Part shown: piece by piece, positions 12,881-32,958 of the stretch
Numbering within the stretch: position 1 is the first letter of the stretch
How the letters are laid out: every line of letters begins with the position of its first letter
DNA from: a virus
IMG/VR virus record: IMGVR_UViG_3300034104_002530
Coordinates: 1-34,038 of that record
Strand: one strand, 5' to 3'
DNA: 34,038 nucleotides
Notes under the pieces: generated by a model
The model's database searches: none
Seen by the model: the letters and a program-made list of their open reading frames with translations, nothing else
Told to the model about the DNA's origin: nothing
Position numbers and translations under genes: made by a program

Positions 12881-13693
12881 TTATCGACCGGAGAGCAAAT
12901 CACTAATTCTATTTTGTATATCACCCATCTGCTGAGTTAATGATTCTCTAGCTTCAGGTGAGCTTTCAAAATTTCTCTGCAATGACAGTCTATATCTTTC
13001 GACTGTCAGTTGTTCTACCTGTTGACGACGAAGATTAGCTAAAGTTGTTTCAACTTGTGTGGGTGTAGCATCAGCTACGCCAGCTGGTGCGGGTAATTGT
13101 TCTCTAGTTATTGCAGACTGCGCAGCGGTTGACGTATTAGGTGATGATTCAACTTCAGGTGCAGCGGGGATGGGTTCTGGTGGTGGTGCAGCTTCAGCTG
13201 GTTGATTTGACGGTGGGTGATTTGCTGGCTGTTCGGCAGCTGTCGCAGACGCTTGACATATGCTTACGCCAGATAATAGATTGTTCAATAGCCCATTCAA
13301 GTCAATGTTTGGGAACAATAACTGTATTCTAAGATATTGTGACAAAAACCCAACAGGGTCATTTATTAATCGAACAAGTGACGCAATTTCCTGTTCAACT
13401 TGATTGGCTAAACTGCGCACTGGACCTAAAACATTTGATATGGCAGATGATACAACGGCCGTCACCTGTGCAGTCATCAAAGCTGGAAGATTTTGAACAA
13501 ACGCAACGATATCGGTTGCGGTTTGTACTGCATTATTGATAGCAGTAGTTGCGGTGTTTATTGCTGATCTAACCTCAGATAGAGCAGAGCCAACACCACA
13601 ACCAGATGTGATAGCTTGCTGAGCAGAATTTATTATTGAAGGGTTAGATACTAATGCATTTTGGATTTCTTGAGGTGATGATGGTATTGTCAT
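12881..13693 (-). CDS. Unknown tail-hub-region protein with helical N-terminus and Pro/Ala linker
   Basis: A 270-residue protein whose ATG overlaps the gp5 stop (ATGA). Residues 1-110 are predicted helical, rich in Ala, Ser and Val with few charges. Residues 110-150 continue as amphipathic helix (LVRLINDPVGFLSQYLRIQL and a following LLNNLLSG). Residues about 151-205 form a Pro/Ala/Glu linker of low complexity. Residues about 210-270 are a charged helix with heptads, probably a coiled coil. I do not recognise the family. Its place between the spike gene and the wedge genes, in a late operon of structural genes only, suggests a minor hub or spike-associated protein or a chaperone. It has no catalytic motif and no signal peptide. 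It could be an analogue of a T4 hub protein not seen here, such as gp28, but nothing in the sequence proves that. Confidence 0.7.
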   Translation of the reverse strand: MTIPSSPQEIQNALVSNPSIINSAQQAITSGCGVGSALSEVRSAINTATTAINNAVQTATDIVAFVQNLPALMTAQVTAVVSSAISNVLGPVRSLANQVEQEIASLVRLINDPVGFLSQYLRIQLLFPNIDLNGLLNNLLSGVSICQASATAAEQPANHPPSNQPAEAAPPPEPIPAAPEVESSPNTSTAAQSAITREQLPAPAGVADATPTQVETTLANLRRQQVEQLTVERYRLSLQRNFESSPEARESLTQQMGDIQNRISDLLSGR

Positions 13694-25948: not shown

Positions 25949-26315
25949 CAACCGTCTTAGCAGCTAATGCAGCGATGAACCCGCCGACATCCTTGCGAAC
26001 GATATCAATCGACTCCATATGCTGAGGCCAGTAAATCTCAAGGGCCTGAGCATCTTGGGTGCAGACAAAGCAATGCACCTCATTTGGCGGCACCGCAGTA
26101 AAGTCACCTGGGCGAAGCACAGTTACATCTGTCAGACCATACTGCTTTTCGGTGTGAATTTCGATAATGCCGCTAATCACATAGAAGCCATTCCAACGAT
26201 GACGATGACTATGCAGCGAGCATCGAAAGCCCGCCTTAGTATTGATACGATGAACCTCTACATTCGGTGATGTAAACAGGTCCTCGGTATCACCCCAAAC
26301 CTTACCAAGCTTCAC
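25935..26315 (-). CDS. Cupin-domain protein
   Basis: A 126-residue single-domain cupin starting at GTG with AGGAG seven bases upstream. Motif 1 is at residues 31-50 (RCSLHSHRHRWNGFYVISG) with His35, His37 and His39; the usual Glu is replaced by Asn42. Motif 2 is PGDFTAVPPNEVH (69-81) with His81. This keeps a metal-binding set. The layout is like the small cupins related to the C-terminal domain of mannose-6-phosphate isomerase/GMP enzymes, which act on sugars. It overlaps kdsA upstream by 14 bases and gp33 downstream by 14 bases, so its translation is tied to both. A link to surface-sugar metabolism is inferred from the neighbour; a sensory or dioxygenase-type function cannot be excluded. Confidence 0.85.
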   Translation of the reverse strand: MKLGKVWGDTEDLFTSPNVEVHRINTKAGFRCSLHSHRHRWNGFYVISGIIEIHTEKQYGLTDVTVLRPGDFTAVPPNEVHCFVCTQDAQALEIYWPQHMESIDIVRKDVGGFIAALAAKTVDDAA

Positions 26316-27150
26316 TTTGTTCTCCTCTAGATGACATATGAGCCTTCACGACATAATCTAACTCAAGTAGCTGCTGAAGTACAGACTTAAAATTGGCTAA
26401 GTGCAGCATATTCGGACCATCGCACGGTGCATTGTCTGGGTCCTGATGCACTTCCATGAACACACCAGCAATACCGACAGCTGTGGCTGCACGCGCGATG
26501 ACGGGCACCATCGAACGATTACCACCAGACGAGATACCGTTACCACCAGGCGACTGTACCGCGTGGGTGCAGTCCATGATGACAGGGTAATTCATTGGCG
26601 TGTTACCTCGCATGATATCAAGTGAGCGCATGTCAACAACAAGATCGTTATAGCCGAATGTAGTGCCGCGCTCAGTCATCATGACCTTAGTGCAACCAGA
26701 TGACTCCAGCTTATGCACGATATTAACCATCTCACGCGGCGAGAGAAACTGACCCTTCTTTACATTTACAGGCTTGCCTGATGCAGCAGCAGCCTGCAGC
26801 AGGTCAGTTTGACGGCAAAGAAATGCTGGGATTTGAATAATATCTGCGGGTACAGTTTCGCAATGCCACGGCTCATGCACGTCAGTCAAAACTTCAAGCC
26901 CCAACATTTCCTTGACGGCAACAAACCCATAGAATGCTTCATCAAACCCAGCACCTCGATATGAAGTGACACTTGTTCGATTTGCCTTGTCAAAAGAAGT
27001 CTTATAGATGTAGTTTACATTTAAGTCTTTGCAGATTTCAGATAACTGACCTGCCATATCAAGCGCATGTTGCTTGGACTCAAACACACATGGCCCGGCA
27101 ATCACACTCAAGTTAAATTCATTTCGACAATTATCATAAAAAAGACTCAC
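26302..27150 (-). CDS. kdsA: 3-deoxy-8-phosphooctulonate (KDO-8-P) synthase
   Basis: A 282-residue KdsA, which joins phosphoenolpyruvate and D-arabinose-5-phosphate to KDO-8-phosphate for lipopolysaccharide inner core. Clear blocks: VIAGPCVFES (16-25), YKTSFDKANRTSVTSYRGAG (49-68), LTDVHEPWHC (88-97), IIQIPAFLCRQTDLL (104-118), NVKKGQFLSPREM (129-141), TERGTTFGYNDLVVDMR (159-175), MDCTHAVQSPGG and EVHQDPDNAPCDGPNML. Cys21, His196, Glu233 and Asp244 line up with the four metal ligands of the Aquifex enzyme (Cys11, His185, Glu222, Asp233), so it is of the metal-dependent class, unlike E. coli KdsA, which has Asn at the first site. GTG start with AGGAG about eight bases upstream, directly after the SleB-type gene. 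All catalytic blocks are intact. This is an auxiliary metabolic gene. Confidence 0.94.
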   Translation of the reverse strand: MSLFYDNCRNEFNLSVIAGPCVFESKQHALDMAGQLSEICKDLNVNYIYKTSFDKANRTSVTSYRGAGFDEAFYGFVAVKEMLGLEVLTDVHEPWHCETVPADIIQIPAFLCRQTDLLQAAAASGKPVNVKKGQFLSPREMVNIVHKLESSGCTKVMMTERGTTFGYNDLVVDMRSLDIMRGNTPMNYPVIMDCTHAVQSPGGNGISSGGNRSMVPVIARAATAVGIAGVFMEVHQDPDNAPCDGPNMLHLANFKSVLQQLLELDYVVKAHMSSRGEQSEAW

Positions 27151-27153
27151 AAC

Positions 27154-27732
27154 TTATCTCCTATAAAACATATGCGACCCAATACGCAGTGCATTTCTCT
27201 GCGGCGAAGACCCACTCACGGCATGAAAACGTATTGCGCCATCTGTGATATCGGGTAGATTACCAGACATGACATGCATCGCAATATCATTGGCCATTTG
27301 CCACTGAGGGTCATTTGCTGGCGGGACTCGATTACCAACCTTGCAGTAATATTCAAACTGACAAATGTTTCGGGTTCTCTGTCGAGTGACACCACAGATC
27401 GTATTAGGGTAATCTGGGTCTTGTGAACGATTTAAGATCACATTAGCCACTGCAAGCATACCGACAAATCTTTCACCGCGAGCCTCATAGTATATAGCGT
27501 GGGCCATGCAATGCAGATCAGCCTGACTTGTAGTGATATGATCTTCAAACTCAGGCGGTGTTAGATCAATACCAATATCAAACTGAGGGACACTAACTCT
27601 AGCTTCTCTAACCTCAGATTGATTGTTTCTTGGTGCAGCCTCAGCCGAGTGATGTAGCATATCACTACCAAAAACAACTAAAGCTGCGCCTACGAGCGCG
27701 CCCAGGGCAACGCTTATAACCCTTTCCGTCAA
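27154..27732 (-). CDS. SleB-type cell-wall hydrolase with N-terminal membrane anchor
   Basis: No ATG is available. TTG at 27732 has GAAGGA nine bases upstream and is preferred (192 residues); TTG at 27765 would add 11 residues but lacks a binding site and lies in the hairpin next to the tmRNA. After the start comes a hydrophobic segment (VISVALGALVGAALVVFG) followed by an Ala-rich possible cleavage site, so the protein is probably a signal-anchored or exported lysin. The C-terminal 120 residues are a Hydrolase_2/SleB domain: CMAHAIYYEARGE with the catalytic Glu, VANVILNRSQDPDYPNTICG, the CQFEYYC motif, and DGAIRFHA near the end. This enzyme family cuts peptidoglycan and is frequent in phages of alphaproteobacteria. 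It is the likely lysis endolysin, separate from the tail GH19 enzyme. Its stop is four bases before kdsA. Confidence 0.87.
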   Translation of the reverse strand: MTERVISVALGALVGAALVVFGSDMLHHSAEAAPRNNQSEVREARVSVPQFDIGIDLTPPEFEDHITTSQADLHCMAHAIYYEARGERFVGMLAVANVILNRSQDPDYPNTICGVTRQRTRNICQFEYYCKVGNRVPPANDPQWQMANDIAMHVMSGNLPDITDGAIRFHAVSGSSPQRNALRIGSHMFYRR

Positions 27733-27755
27733 GATGTTTTGTCCTTCTGTTGTGG

Positions 27756-27784
27756 CCCTATTCAAGAGGATACATTGAGTAGGG
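27756..27784 (-). other. Hairpin at the 3' border of the tmRNA
   Basis: On the minus strand CCCTA-C-TCAA pairs with TTGA-A-TAGGG around a nine-base loop: nine pairs with one C-A mismatch. No T tract follows, so it is not a standard terminator. It may mark the end of the tmRNA coding piece or a processing site, and it lies just before the hydrolase gene. Confidence 0.4.
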
Positions 27785-28057
27785 TGGGGAGCTTCTGTTG
27801 CCCGGTGCTCCCCAAACCGCGCTTACCTATTAGGCAGCGAGTGCTACGGCAAAGCCGTTGTCATTGGCACTTATCAATAGCGATTAGGTCGCTAGCCGTC
27901 ATCTCCGGTCAACCTTTACCATACCCGTCGATTCTGTTTCAGCCCCAAAGAAAACCGTGACGTACCTAGGGCAGAGGTCACGGCCGTATTATTGGTGGAG
28001 CTGCGCGGCACTGCCCCGCGGTCCGTAGTATCTATTATATCGCCATCAACGATGACA
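27785..28057 (-). ncRNA. ssrA: Circularly permuted (two-piece) tmRNA, alphaproteobacterial type
   Basis: The tRNA-like halves occur in reversed order. The acceptor piece comes first and ends with CAGCTCC-A-CCA at 28003-27993. A 46-base spacer follows, holding a 7-bp stem CCGTGAC/GTCACGG (27983-27977 with 27961-27955). The coding piece then starts at 27946 with GGGGCTGAAACAG and AATCGACGGG, close to the classical tmRNA 5' end. The acceptor stem pairs GGGGCUG with CAGCUCC over seven bases, including G3-U70, the identity pair for alanyl-tRNA synthetase. The T stem (CGCGG/CCGCG) is perfect, but its seven-base loop is GGCAGUG rather than UUC-type. The tag frame at 27868-27827 reads ANDNGFAVALAA and two stops. 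A GGGGAGC/GCTCCCC stem (27813-27807 with 27792-27786) follows. Mature ends other than CCA and GGGG are estimates. Function: rescue of stalled ribosomes with SmpB, which is not encoded here. Confidence 0.92.
27827..27868 (-). other. tmRNA tag reading frame (ANDNGFAVALAA)
   Basis: GCC AAT GAC AAC GGC TTT GCC GTA GCA CTC GCT GCC followed by TAA TAG. The ANDN start and the hydrophobic ALAA end match the alphaproteobacterial tag pattern, and AA ends are degradation signals for ClpXP-type proteases. Tandem stops are usual in tmRNA genes. Confidence 0.9.
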
Positions 28058-28061
28058 AGAA

Positions 28062-28092
28062 TATTTATACAGCAAATTCGCTATTTTGTCAA
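28062..28092 (-). promoter_or_regulatory. Promoter of the tmRNA gene: sigma70 match and late box combined
   Basis: TTGACA at 28092-28087, a 17-base spacer and TATAAA at 28069-28064 on the minus strand. The -10 box is also the start of an exact T4 late promoter TATAAATA (28069-28062). The site lies immediately after the oxygenase stop codon, and start of transcription is expected near 28057, about 37 bases upstream of the T stem. Confidence 0.78.
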
Positions 28093-28095
28093 TGG

Positions 28096-28689
28096 CTATG
28101 TAAAGTGTAGATATGACCCAACCATGTACTTTGGTCCCGAGATTGGCGTATTCGCACGATGTGGGAACATCCACATCGGCGGGAAAATTAATGCACGACC
28201 AGCCTGTGGTTTGACAGATATGTCAAGAGAAGGAAAACATGTCTCACCACCTTCTGTGACATCATTTAGATACCAGAAAAAAGCTAGGTATCTTTTTGAT
28301 GTTGATAGATCCGCAGCATCGACATGATCATCAAATCTATGATTACTATTTGGCAAATATCTCTTTATTCTAAATTCTTCAAGCGCAGTTCTATCTGGCC
28401 AGAATGAAGATTCCGATACACGCTGCTTATAAAACTTAAGCGCATTCAAGCTAGCATGAACCAATTCATCATGCATAATTTTGCATTCCTGATTGATAGA
28501 AGAATGTCTGGTGACATTTAACTGCGAGAAATTATACCCATCTGTCGCATGATGTTCATGACTTGATGCCATATTGTCAAATAGTGAGATGGCCCGACGA
28601 CATACATCATGCGACAGAATATTACTCGCTACGATAATATAATCGCGCAGAGGCTTATATGTTGTCTCTGTGATATTCGAGTATGACAT
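28096..28689 (-). CDS. 2-oxoglutarate/Fe(II)-dependent oxygenase (prolyl 4-hydroxylase-like)
   Basis: Start chosen at ATG 28689 (MSYSN..., 197 residues); a start six codons earlier lies deeper in the upstream gene and has no binding site. The fold is that of P4H-type oxygenases: an N-terminal helical part with ILSHDVCRRAISLFDNMASS, then EEFRIKRYLPNSNHRFDDHVD with the iron-binding His122-x-Asp124, the strand RYLAFFWYLNDVTEGGETCFP, GRALIFPPMWMFPHRANTPI with the distal His177, and GPKYMVGSYLHF with Lys187 for 2-oxoglutarate. All key residues are present. Such genes are common in T4-like marine phages, where their substrates are unknown; peptide or DNA/nucleotide hydroxylation are both possible. 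It overlaps the end of the exonuclease gene by 35 bases and ends just before the tmRNA promoter. Confidence 0.88.
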   Translation of the reverse strand: MSYSNITETTYKPLRDYIIVASNILSHDVCRRAISLFDNMASSHEHHATDGYNFSQLNVTRHSSINQECKIMHDELVHASLNALKFYKQRVSESSFWPDRTALEEFRIKRYLPNSNHRFDDHVDAADLSTSKRYLAFFWYLNDVTEGGETCFPSLDISVKPQAGRALIFPPMWMFPHRANTPISGPKYMVGSYLHFT

Positions 28690-29323
28690 CGCACAATTTT
28701 TCCACATATTTGTCGCGGTATCGACAGAACATTTGAGGCTTTACCTCATCATCAACACCAATAAGAATTACTATGCCAGGTATAATCCGAGCAGTACGCT
28801 CCTCAAACATCAGAGAATATGCAGTAGCCTGAAGCAGATAGTTATCAATATGCTCTTCGGTCTTAAGGCGCTTTGAAGTCTTGAAATCAATGATGCAATC
28901 TGTACCAGCCCACTTACCAACCAAGTCACATCGACCAGCGACCTTCATGCGATCGGAGTATAGTGGCGCTTCCATAGCATAAACATGCGTAAGATGCTTA
29001 TCAAGCACAGACCTGATCGAATTAAACATCGTGACATTGTTAGGCATTTCACCAATTGTTGGGTCTTCACCTACGATGTATTTTTCCATCATAGTATGAA
29101 TCGAAGTTCCGCGGCGTGAAGCTTGTGCAGACACGCGATTCGCCTCTTGCTCACCAACGCGAGCGCGCCACTCAGCGATAATACGCTTCTTTTCTGGGCG
29201 TGCACCTAAGACTGTGGTAATTGATGGGTAAGCTTCACCAGAAGGTGTGTTATAGAGCCTACCGCGATCTGTTTGAACCGCGATAAGCTCAGGTAGTTCA
29301 ACTAAATCATGAACAAATCTCAC
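28655..29323 (-). CDS. RecB-like PD-(D/E)XK exonuclease
   Basis: A 222-residue nuclease. The start region YNTPSGEAYPSITTVLG is typical of phage Cas4/RecB-like nucleases. Residues 70-80 carry RRGTSIHTMMEKYI with the conserved His, followed by Glu118, GRCDLVG (Asp133) and the IIDFKTSK motif (Asp146-x-Lys148) of the PD-(D/E)XK core, and the QATAY (Q-x3-Y) motif at 165-169. All metal and catalytic residues are there. Similar genes in T4-like marine phages are annotated as exonucleases and are thought to process DNA ends in recombination or host DNA degradation. The ATG overlaps the PhoH stop by four bases, and the gene overlaps the oxygenase at its end. Confidence 0.88.
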   Translation of the reverse strand: MRFVHDLVELPELIAVQTDRGRLYNTPSGEAYPSITTVLGARPEKKRIIAEWRARVGEQEANRVSAQASRRGTSIHTMMEKYIVGEDPTIGEMPNNVTMFNSIRSVLDKHLTHVYAMEAPLYSDRMKVAGRCDLVGKWAGTDCIIDFKTSKRLKTEEHIDNYLLQATAYSLMFEERTARIIPGIVILIGVDDEVKPQMFCRYRDKYVEKLCDVILEYHRDNI

Positions 29324-31977: not shown

Positions 31978-32958
31978 ATGAGTGATTTGCGAAAGGTATA
32001 TGATAATCATGCGGGTGCAATTATAAACCTGCAGAAAAATAACCTCTTCACCATCTATTGGTCCCCAGATTTTTTCTGCAATTACAGCTGCTCATACTGT
32101 TGGCCAGGGTCTCATAGCGATAAAAGGACCCATCTATCACCTGATGTCTTAATTTCAGGCTTGACTACATTAAAACAAAAAATAAAAGAGATTGGCTATA
32201 GTGACATACGCTTGGTGTTTGCCGGAGGCGAACCTACTTTGGTGCCAAAATTTTTAGAATTAATAGAAGCATATTGTGAAGATCAGTCTATCAGAAAAAC
32301 TTTAAGCATCAATACCAATTTGACGCATGGTAAAAACTGGTGGGGTAAATTTTTAGGCATAACCAATACGACTCAATTGTCGATAAATGCAAGTTGGCAC
32401 AGAGAAAGTGTTGGCGATTTTGAATTGGCAAGACAAAGATTTTTGGACGTAAGCTCTATATTTAAATCAGATCGCAAAAATTTTTTTATAACAATAGTGG
32501 TCCCACCATCGCAGTTTGATGATGTATATTCCGATGCTTTATTTTTTAGAAAAAATCAAGTTAGGGTTCTCATAAGGGTTGAGAGAAAAACTATTAACGG
32601 TAAGATGAGTGTGCATCCAGATTATACCGATGACATGATAGACGCAATCGTGAATTGGAATGAATATGATGATCGTATAACATTCACTCATACAGAAAAT
32701 GATATAACGACAAATTATAGCGATGTGGAACAAGCAATAGCACTAGGTAAACTTGATTATCACGGGTGGATGTGTTATGCTGGTGTGTCATCAATTGTAA
32801 TAAGACCAAATGGTGATATCATTAGAGGTCACACATGCATAGACAAAAAAATAGGCAACATTCAAGATGCTGCCTACTCACTATGGTCTGAACCCAAAAA
32901 ATGTATTACGAAAAAATGTGGATGCTCATCTGATATGATCACACCTAAAGTAAAATGA
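31978..32958 (+). CDS. Radical SAM enzyme with C-terminal cysteine cluster
   Basis: A 326-residue radical SAM protein. The cluster motif CNYSCSYC gives Cys34-x3-Cys38-x2-Cys41, followed by the GGE motif (FAGGEPTL, 82-89) and the strand LSINTNLTH of the SAM-binding barrel. The end holds a SPASM/twitch-like region: CYAG with Cys266, IVIRPNGDIIRGHTC with Cys287, and KKCITKKCGCSSD with Cys309, 314 and 316, enough for an auxiliary iron-sulfur cluster. Enzymes of this layout modify peptides or proteins or mature other enzymes; no substrate is evident. It is not QueE (too long, wrong motif spacing). AAGGA lies ten bases before the ATG. The gene is more A/T-rich than its surroundings and stands with the holin-like gene on a plus-strand island, so it may be a recent acquisition. 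Function in the phage is unknown. Confidence 0.88.
   Translation: MSDLRKVYDNHAGAIINLQKNNLFTIYWSPDFFCNYSCSYCWPGSHSDKRTHLSPDVLISGLTTLKQKIKEIGYSDIRLVFAGGEPTLVPKFLELIEAYCEDQSIRKTLSINTNLTHGKNWWGKFLGITNTTQLSINASWHRESVGDFELARQRFLDVSSIFKSDRKNFFITIVVPPSQFDDVYSDALFFRKNQVRVLIRVERKTINGKMSVHPDYTDDMIDAIVNWNEYDDRITFTHTENDITTNYSDVEQAIALGKLDYHGWMCYAGVSSIVIRPNGDIIRGHTCIDKKIGNIQDAAYSLWSEPKKCITKKCGCSSDMITPKVK

Follow-up and report, generated by a model that had tools for sequence, protein, structure and literature searches.

A complete, circularly permuted tmRNA of the alphaproteobacterial type is encoded on the minus strand (27783-28057) of the T4-like phage DNA analysed here, a stretch of 34,038 nt that we refer to as the window. 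tmRNA is the RNA that releases stalled ribosomes and labels incomplete proteins for destruction, and in the window its gene lies between genes for a 2OG-Fe(II) oxygenase (28096-28707) and a SleB-type hydrolase (27154-27765). Judging from covariance models, covariation, conservation of the mature pieces against a freely varying spacer, recurrent promoter boxes, the phage context and the presence of such genes in isolates, this is very likely a functional phage-encoded two-piece tmRNA. Its parts are as follows.

28087-28092 (minus strand): -35 box TTGACA (sequence; recurrence in viral tmRNAs).
28062-28069 (minus strand): -10 box TATAAATA, which equals the T4 late promoter consensus (position-specific recurrence in viral tmRNAs).
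27993-28057 (minus strand): acceptor piece, ending in CCA (27993-27995), with an approximate 5′ end (Rfam, sequence, conservation).
28004-28020 (minus strand): T arm, with a 5-bp stem (5/5 pairs) and the 7-nt loop GGCAGUG (pairing, covariation).
27997-28003 (minus strand): 3′ strand of the acceptor stem, CAGCUCC, with U70 opposite G3 (pairing, covariation).
27947-27992 (minus strand): spacer of 46 nt with a 9-bp hairpin, predicted to be cut from the precursor (folding, relatives).
27940-27946 (minus strand): 5′ strand of the acceptor stem, GGGGCUG, forming 7/7 pairs with CAGCUCC (pairing, covariation).
27783-27946 (minus strand): tag (mRNA-like) piece, beginning with GGGG, with the 3′ end according to Rfam (Rfam, conservation).
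27827-27868 (minus strand): tag reading frame ANDNGFAVALAA with the stops TAA TAG (ARAGORN; identical peptide in four diverged relatives).
27786-27813 (minus strand): terminal hairpin GGGGAGC/GCUCCCC, whose loop contains the conserved GGCAACAG motif and which has no U run after it (Rfam, sequence).

The initial annotation had placed a two-piece tmRNA of the alphaproteobacterial type in this apparent gap between genes, and had named Infernal and the permuted-gene search of ARAGORN as the means to verify it. Both supported the proposal. The sole gene called by ARAGORN in the window was a permuted tmRNA at 27739-28085 (minus strand), with the tag ANDNGFAVALAA and, as had been read by eye, two stops after it. 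Infernal cmscan matched the alpha_tmRNA model (RF01849) over its whole length at 27783-28096 (138.7 bits, E = 4.5e-38) and the tmRNA_permuted model (RF04321) at 27830-28054 (99.5 bits, E = 1.9e-18), both far above the Rfam gathering scores of 50 and 47, respectively. The acceptor half with its CCA precedes the GGGG half, with the spacer between them, and the CCA end at 27993, the GGGG start at 27946 and the spacer length of 46 nt had been given exactly. The tRNA-like domain comprises a 7-bp acceptor stem, a T arm and the previously noted G3-U70 pair, while the tag frame has a resume codon, a hydrophobic end in AA and a stop. Two details needed revision: the spacer, described as having a 7-bp stem, folds instead as 9 bp with an inner stem of 4 bp, and the extent of 27785-28057 does hold the tmRNA, but the transcription unit begins farther upstream, with its promoter at 28062-28092 (minus strand). 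The folding free energy of the whole tmRNA was not unusual when compared to shuffled sequences (z about -1.2 to -1.3); the identification is based on covariance models, covariation and conservation, and not on free energy. A second alpha_tmRNA match at 1770-1941 was rejected as a chance match of 15.3 bits, below the cut-off and within a large open reading frame.

The assignment of the DNA to a T4-like phage, made at the outset, was borne out by the contig, which also carries genes for gp32 and gp59 homologues, PhoH, an exonuclease, head closure and the baseplate. The baseplate wedge protein was nearest to those of phage Melnitz and the pelagimyophages. T4-like genes flank the tmRNA on both sides, and the gene order around it recurs in other viral contigs. 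Since the tmRNA sits among phage genes in an order shared with other viral contigs, we conclude that it is encoded by the phage and does not represent host contamination.

It is established that RNase P and 3′ enzymes process two-piece tmRNAs, that these are charged with alanine, that tagging depends on SmpB, and that ClpXP-type proteases carry out the degradation. We infer transcription, processing, charging, tagging and benefit of the phage tmRNA along the following lines. From the tmRNA's own promoter, directly after the oxygenase gene, host RNA polymerase would produce a single precursor. RNase P and the 3′ tRNA-processing enzymes of the host would form its GGGG and CCA ends and the spacer hairpin would be discarded, with the acceptor stem holding the two pieces together. 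Host alanyl-tRNA synthetase would charge the RNA with alanine via G3-U70, and host SmpB and EF-Tu would carry it to stalled ribosomes, where ANDNGFAVALAA would be appended and the ribosome freed; the tagged chain would then pass to a ClpXP-type protease. The benefit would most likely be that ribosomes are kept free while cut or non-stop mRNAs build up and host transcription is off. A search for SmpB was negative for the window and for 19 further viral contigs, the majority of them with a tmRNA, whereas 10 of 14 control genomes were positive. This suggests that the phage tmRNA, if it works, probably uses the SmpB of the host and would need a host that is compatible with it.

The tag ANDNGFAVALAA has the usual form, with an ANDN start and an AA (LAA) end. 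Its exact pattern was not matched in 84,980 species genomes (contigs of at least 3,000 bases), and a scan of genome contigs for the GGGG-piece pattern returned nothing. The absence of an exact match is not remarkable in itself, since tags differ widely among the viral relatives, nearly all of which retain the alanine-alanine end. It could nonetheless be taken to mean that the phage makes a modified tmRNA that counteracts the host system, the tag diverting proteins from host proteases or the RNA competing for SmpB, and such a role would have a parallel in phage DS6A, whose tmRNA, consisting of the tRNA-like domain only, resembles a tmRNA-inhibiting molecule (PMC4131195; PMC11915505). We consider this very unlikely, because the tag retains ANDN at its start and LAA at its end, as is usual, every part needed for normal tagging is intact and conserved, and the tags of relatives drift, yet nearly always up to the two terminal alanines. 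Redirected proteolysis, which the initial annotation had suggested beside a replacement of host tmRNA, is unlikely in particular, since the retained C-terminal LAA is the signal read by ClpX.

Further evidence for a functional tmRNA was obtained from viral relatives. Starting from 77 viral contigs that carry a relative of the neighbouring oxygenase, ARAGORN called a permuted tmRNA on 11 in the fetched stretch, and Rfam added four in 18 further contigs searched; many of the viral contigs sampled are fragmentary. In most of the oxygenase-linked cases, no more than tens of bases separate the end of the oxygenase gene from the start of the tmRNA. In the nine diverged phage tmRNAs of this set, the acceptor and T stems were 100% paired (9/9), the third acceptor pair was invariably G-U, and 26 doubly changed cells were counted, as compared to a shuffled mean of 7.1, with none of 500 shuffles reaching 26. 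A pattern search of IMG/VR with GGGGCTGAANNNGNNTCGAC gave at least 120 stretches, and ARAGORN called a permuted tmRNA in at least 69 (69 of 120 among the GGGGCTGAANNNGNNTCGAC matches listed). Since this pattern fixes part of the acceptor stem, the covariation count was confined to the oxygenase-linked set.

The contrast between mature pieces and spacer was most evident in four relatives, L042, L051, L093 and L118. Their flanking genes were 68-84% identical to those of the window, whereas the mature tmRNA pieces were 91-97% identical and the tag peptide was the same; the spacers, by contrast, measured 7, 45, 45 and 76 nt, respectively. Even in a near-identical phage, the spacer was 107 nt long versus 46 in the window. 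The oxygenase was absent from all four relatives, with just a 42-base match in L051 and L093, so the tmRNA persists where this neighbour is missing. Together, these sequence comparisons indicate a genuine gene subject to strong selection. They also bear on the idea that the tmRNA was carried over from a host, either as a passenger or as what remains of an integration site, and is useless to the phage, which we strongly disfavour and regard as hardly credible: phages do integrate into ssrA and may carry fragments (PMC9004378), and the tmRNA type is that of alphaproteobacterial cells, but the gene is complete and no fragment, its mature parts are far more conserved than the adjoining protein genes, its stems show covariation among diverged phages, relatives have preserved the tag frame, and the phage is T4-like.

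The spacer of L042, whose tmRNA lies near 13338-13649, reads TTTTTAT and is the shortest seen, with mature pieces and tag intact. In two other relatives, the spacer was 89-91 nt long, was closed by a 10-bp stem and contained a T-arm-like hairpin with the loop UUCGAUU. This hairpin raised the suspicion of a tRNA inside these spacers, which was dismissed as Rfam found no tRNA even at E values up to 1.

Upstream of the tmRNA, TTGACA (28092-28087) and TATAAATA (28069-28062) are separated by 17 nt on the minus strand. Among 60 unique viral permuted tmRNAs, 34 had TATAAAT 73-80 nt before the CCA, where 0.3 would be expected by shuffling. A -35 box matching at least five of six positions was present in 29 of these 34, in 27 cases exactly 17 nt upstream. 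Roughly half of the viral permuted tmRNAs sampled, and Melnitz too, share a TTGACA-N17-TATAAAT-type layout. In the Rfam alignment, the TATAAATA box coincides with a UAUAUU stretch of the cellular consensus. Several structural genes of the window phage have NATAAATA boxes with a -35 of at best 4/6. Upstream of the gp32 gene (upstream of 25022, minus strand), TTGACA-N17-TATAAGTA represents the same kind of hybrid promoter as that of the tmRNA. While the -10 box equals the T4 late consensus, the perfect TTGACA 17 nt upstream also fits sigma-70, and its conservation at this distance led us to reject a purely late promoter. A host promoter with a late -10 box would fit these facts. Tentatively, such a hybrid, with sigma-70 -35 box and spacing and a T4 late -10 box, may drive the tmRNA gene of T4-like phages: host polymerase would read it from the outset and the gp55/gp33 machinery once more at the late stage, so that the phage could do without tmRNA supplied by the host for the whole infection; we consider this scenario somewhat less likely than not. 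The tmRNA of Melnitz was located downstream of an early promoter by its authors (PMC9004378).

The conservation of the mature RNA versus the free spacer, the occurrence on many viral contigs and the conserved promoter layout suggest that ribosome rescue may be a regular need in these infections. In the literature, we found no experiment on the reason why phages keep their own tmRNA.

The window tmRNA is not new in kind, since two-piece tmRNAs of marine and aquatic phages have been described before. The annotation had left it undecided whether a permuted tmRNA had been described in a T4-like phage; it has, in Melnitz (2022; PMC9004378). The same study derived 133 distinct tmRNA structures from 402 phages, 53 of them two-piece, and 50 of these 53 came from marine or aquatic samples (PMC9004378), while a tmRNA database holds 79 phage sequences (PMC11915505). 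What is new here is a genuine further two-piece phage tmRNA with a tag unmatched in the species genomes searched. Like the window, Methylophilales phage Melnitz EXVC044M (MZ577097, 45984-46436) has a permuted alpha-type tmRNA in a T4-like genome, with the same order of acceptor half, spacer and GGGG half and the same TTGACA-N17-TATAAATA upstream. Its tag, ANDNYVPVDYALAA, shares the ANDN...LAA form but differs in sequence, its tmRNA neighbours are different, and blastn gave no nucleotide match between the two tmRNAs. For the Melnitz tmRNA, a link to a glutamine riboswitch was reported (PMC9004378), whereas Rfam gave no match to this riboswitch in the window. When phage records were searched at the nucleotide level, the only match to the window tmRNA was one of 34 bases in mycobacteriophages.

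The earliest demonstration of the two-piece tmRNA of alphaproteobacteria was made in Caulobacter (Keiler et al. 2000, cited from PMC9004378). The cellular alpha_tmRNA (RF01849) agrees with the window in fold, gene order, tag form and terminal hairpin, but its consensus has UAUAUU where the window has the -10 box TATAAATA, and the window copy resides on a phage genome. The tmRNAs of the Bxz1 group and of Bacillus phage G are standard one-piece genes, phage-encoded like that of the window but not permuted. They have been described for mycobacteriophage Bxz1 and its relatives and for Bacillus phage G (PMC4131195). Permuted tmRNAs like that of the window, unannotated in the respective records, were found in three cultured phages of alphaproteobacteria: Rhodobacter phage RcSimone-Hastad (MW677525), Erythrobacter phage vB_EliS-L02 (OL955261) and Mesorhizobium phage Cp1R7A-A1 (MT188704). 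Their tags differ from that of the window and no TATAAATA box was seen upstream. Within the phage collection, the closest oxygenase belongs to Rhizobium phages, and no tmRNA was found near that gene. The three cultured phages and Melnitz are isolates in which the role of the tmRNA can be tested by deletion. In the fetched stretch of the Erythrobacter phage, the tmRNA comes after a run of 12 tRNA genes.

Two further regions of the window phage deserve mention. At 26302-27150 (minus strand), it encodes a 3-deoxy-8-phosphooctulonate synthase, KdsA (TIGR01362, 362 bits over its cut-off). A small cupin gene comes next; the phage KdsA represents an auxiliary gene for a lipopolysaccharide sugar. At 31978-32958 (plus strand), it encodes a radical SAM protein with weak, below-cut-off likeness to the STM4011-type and viperin-type families.
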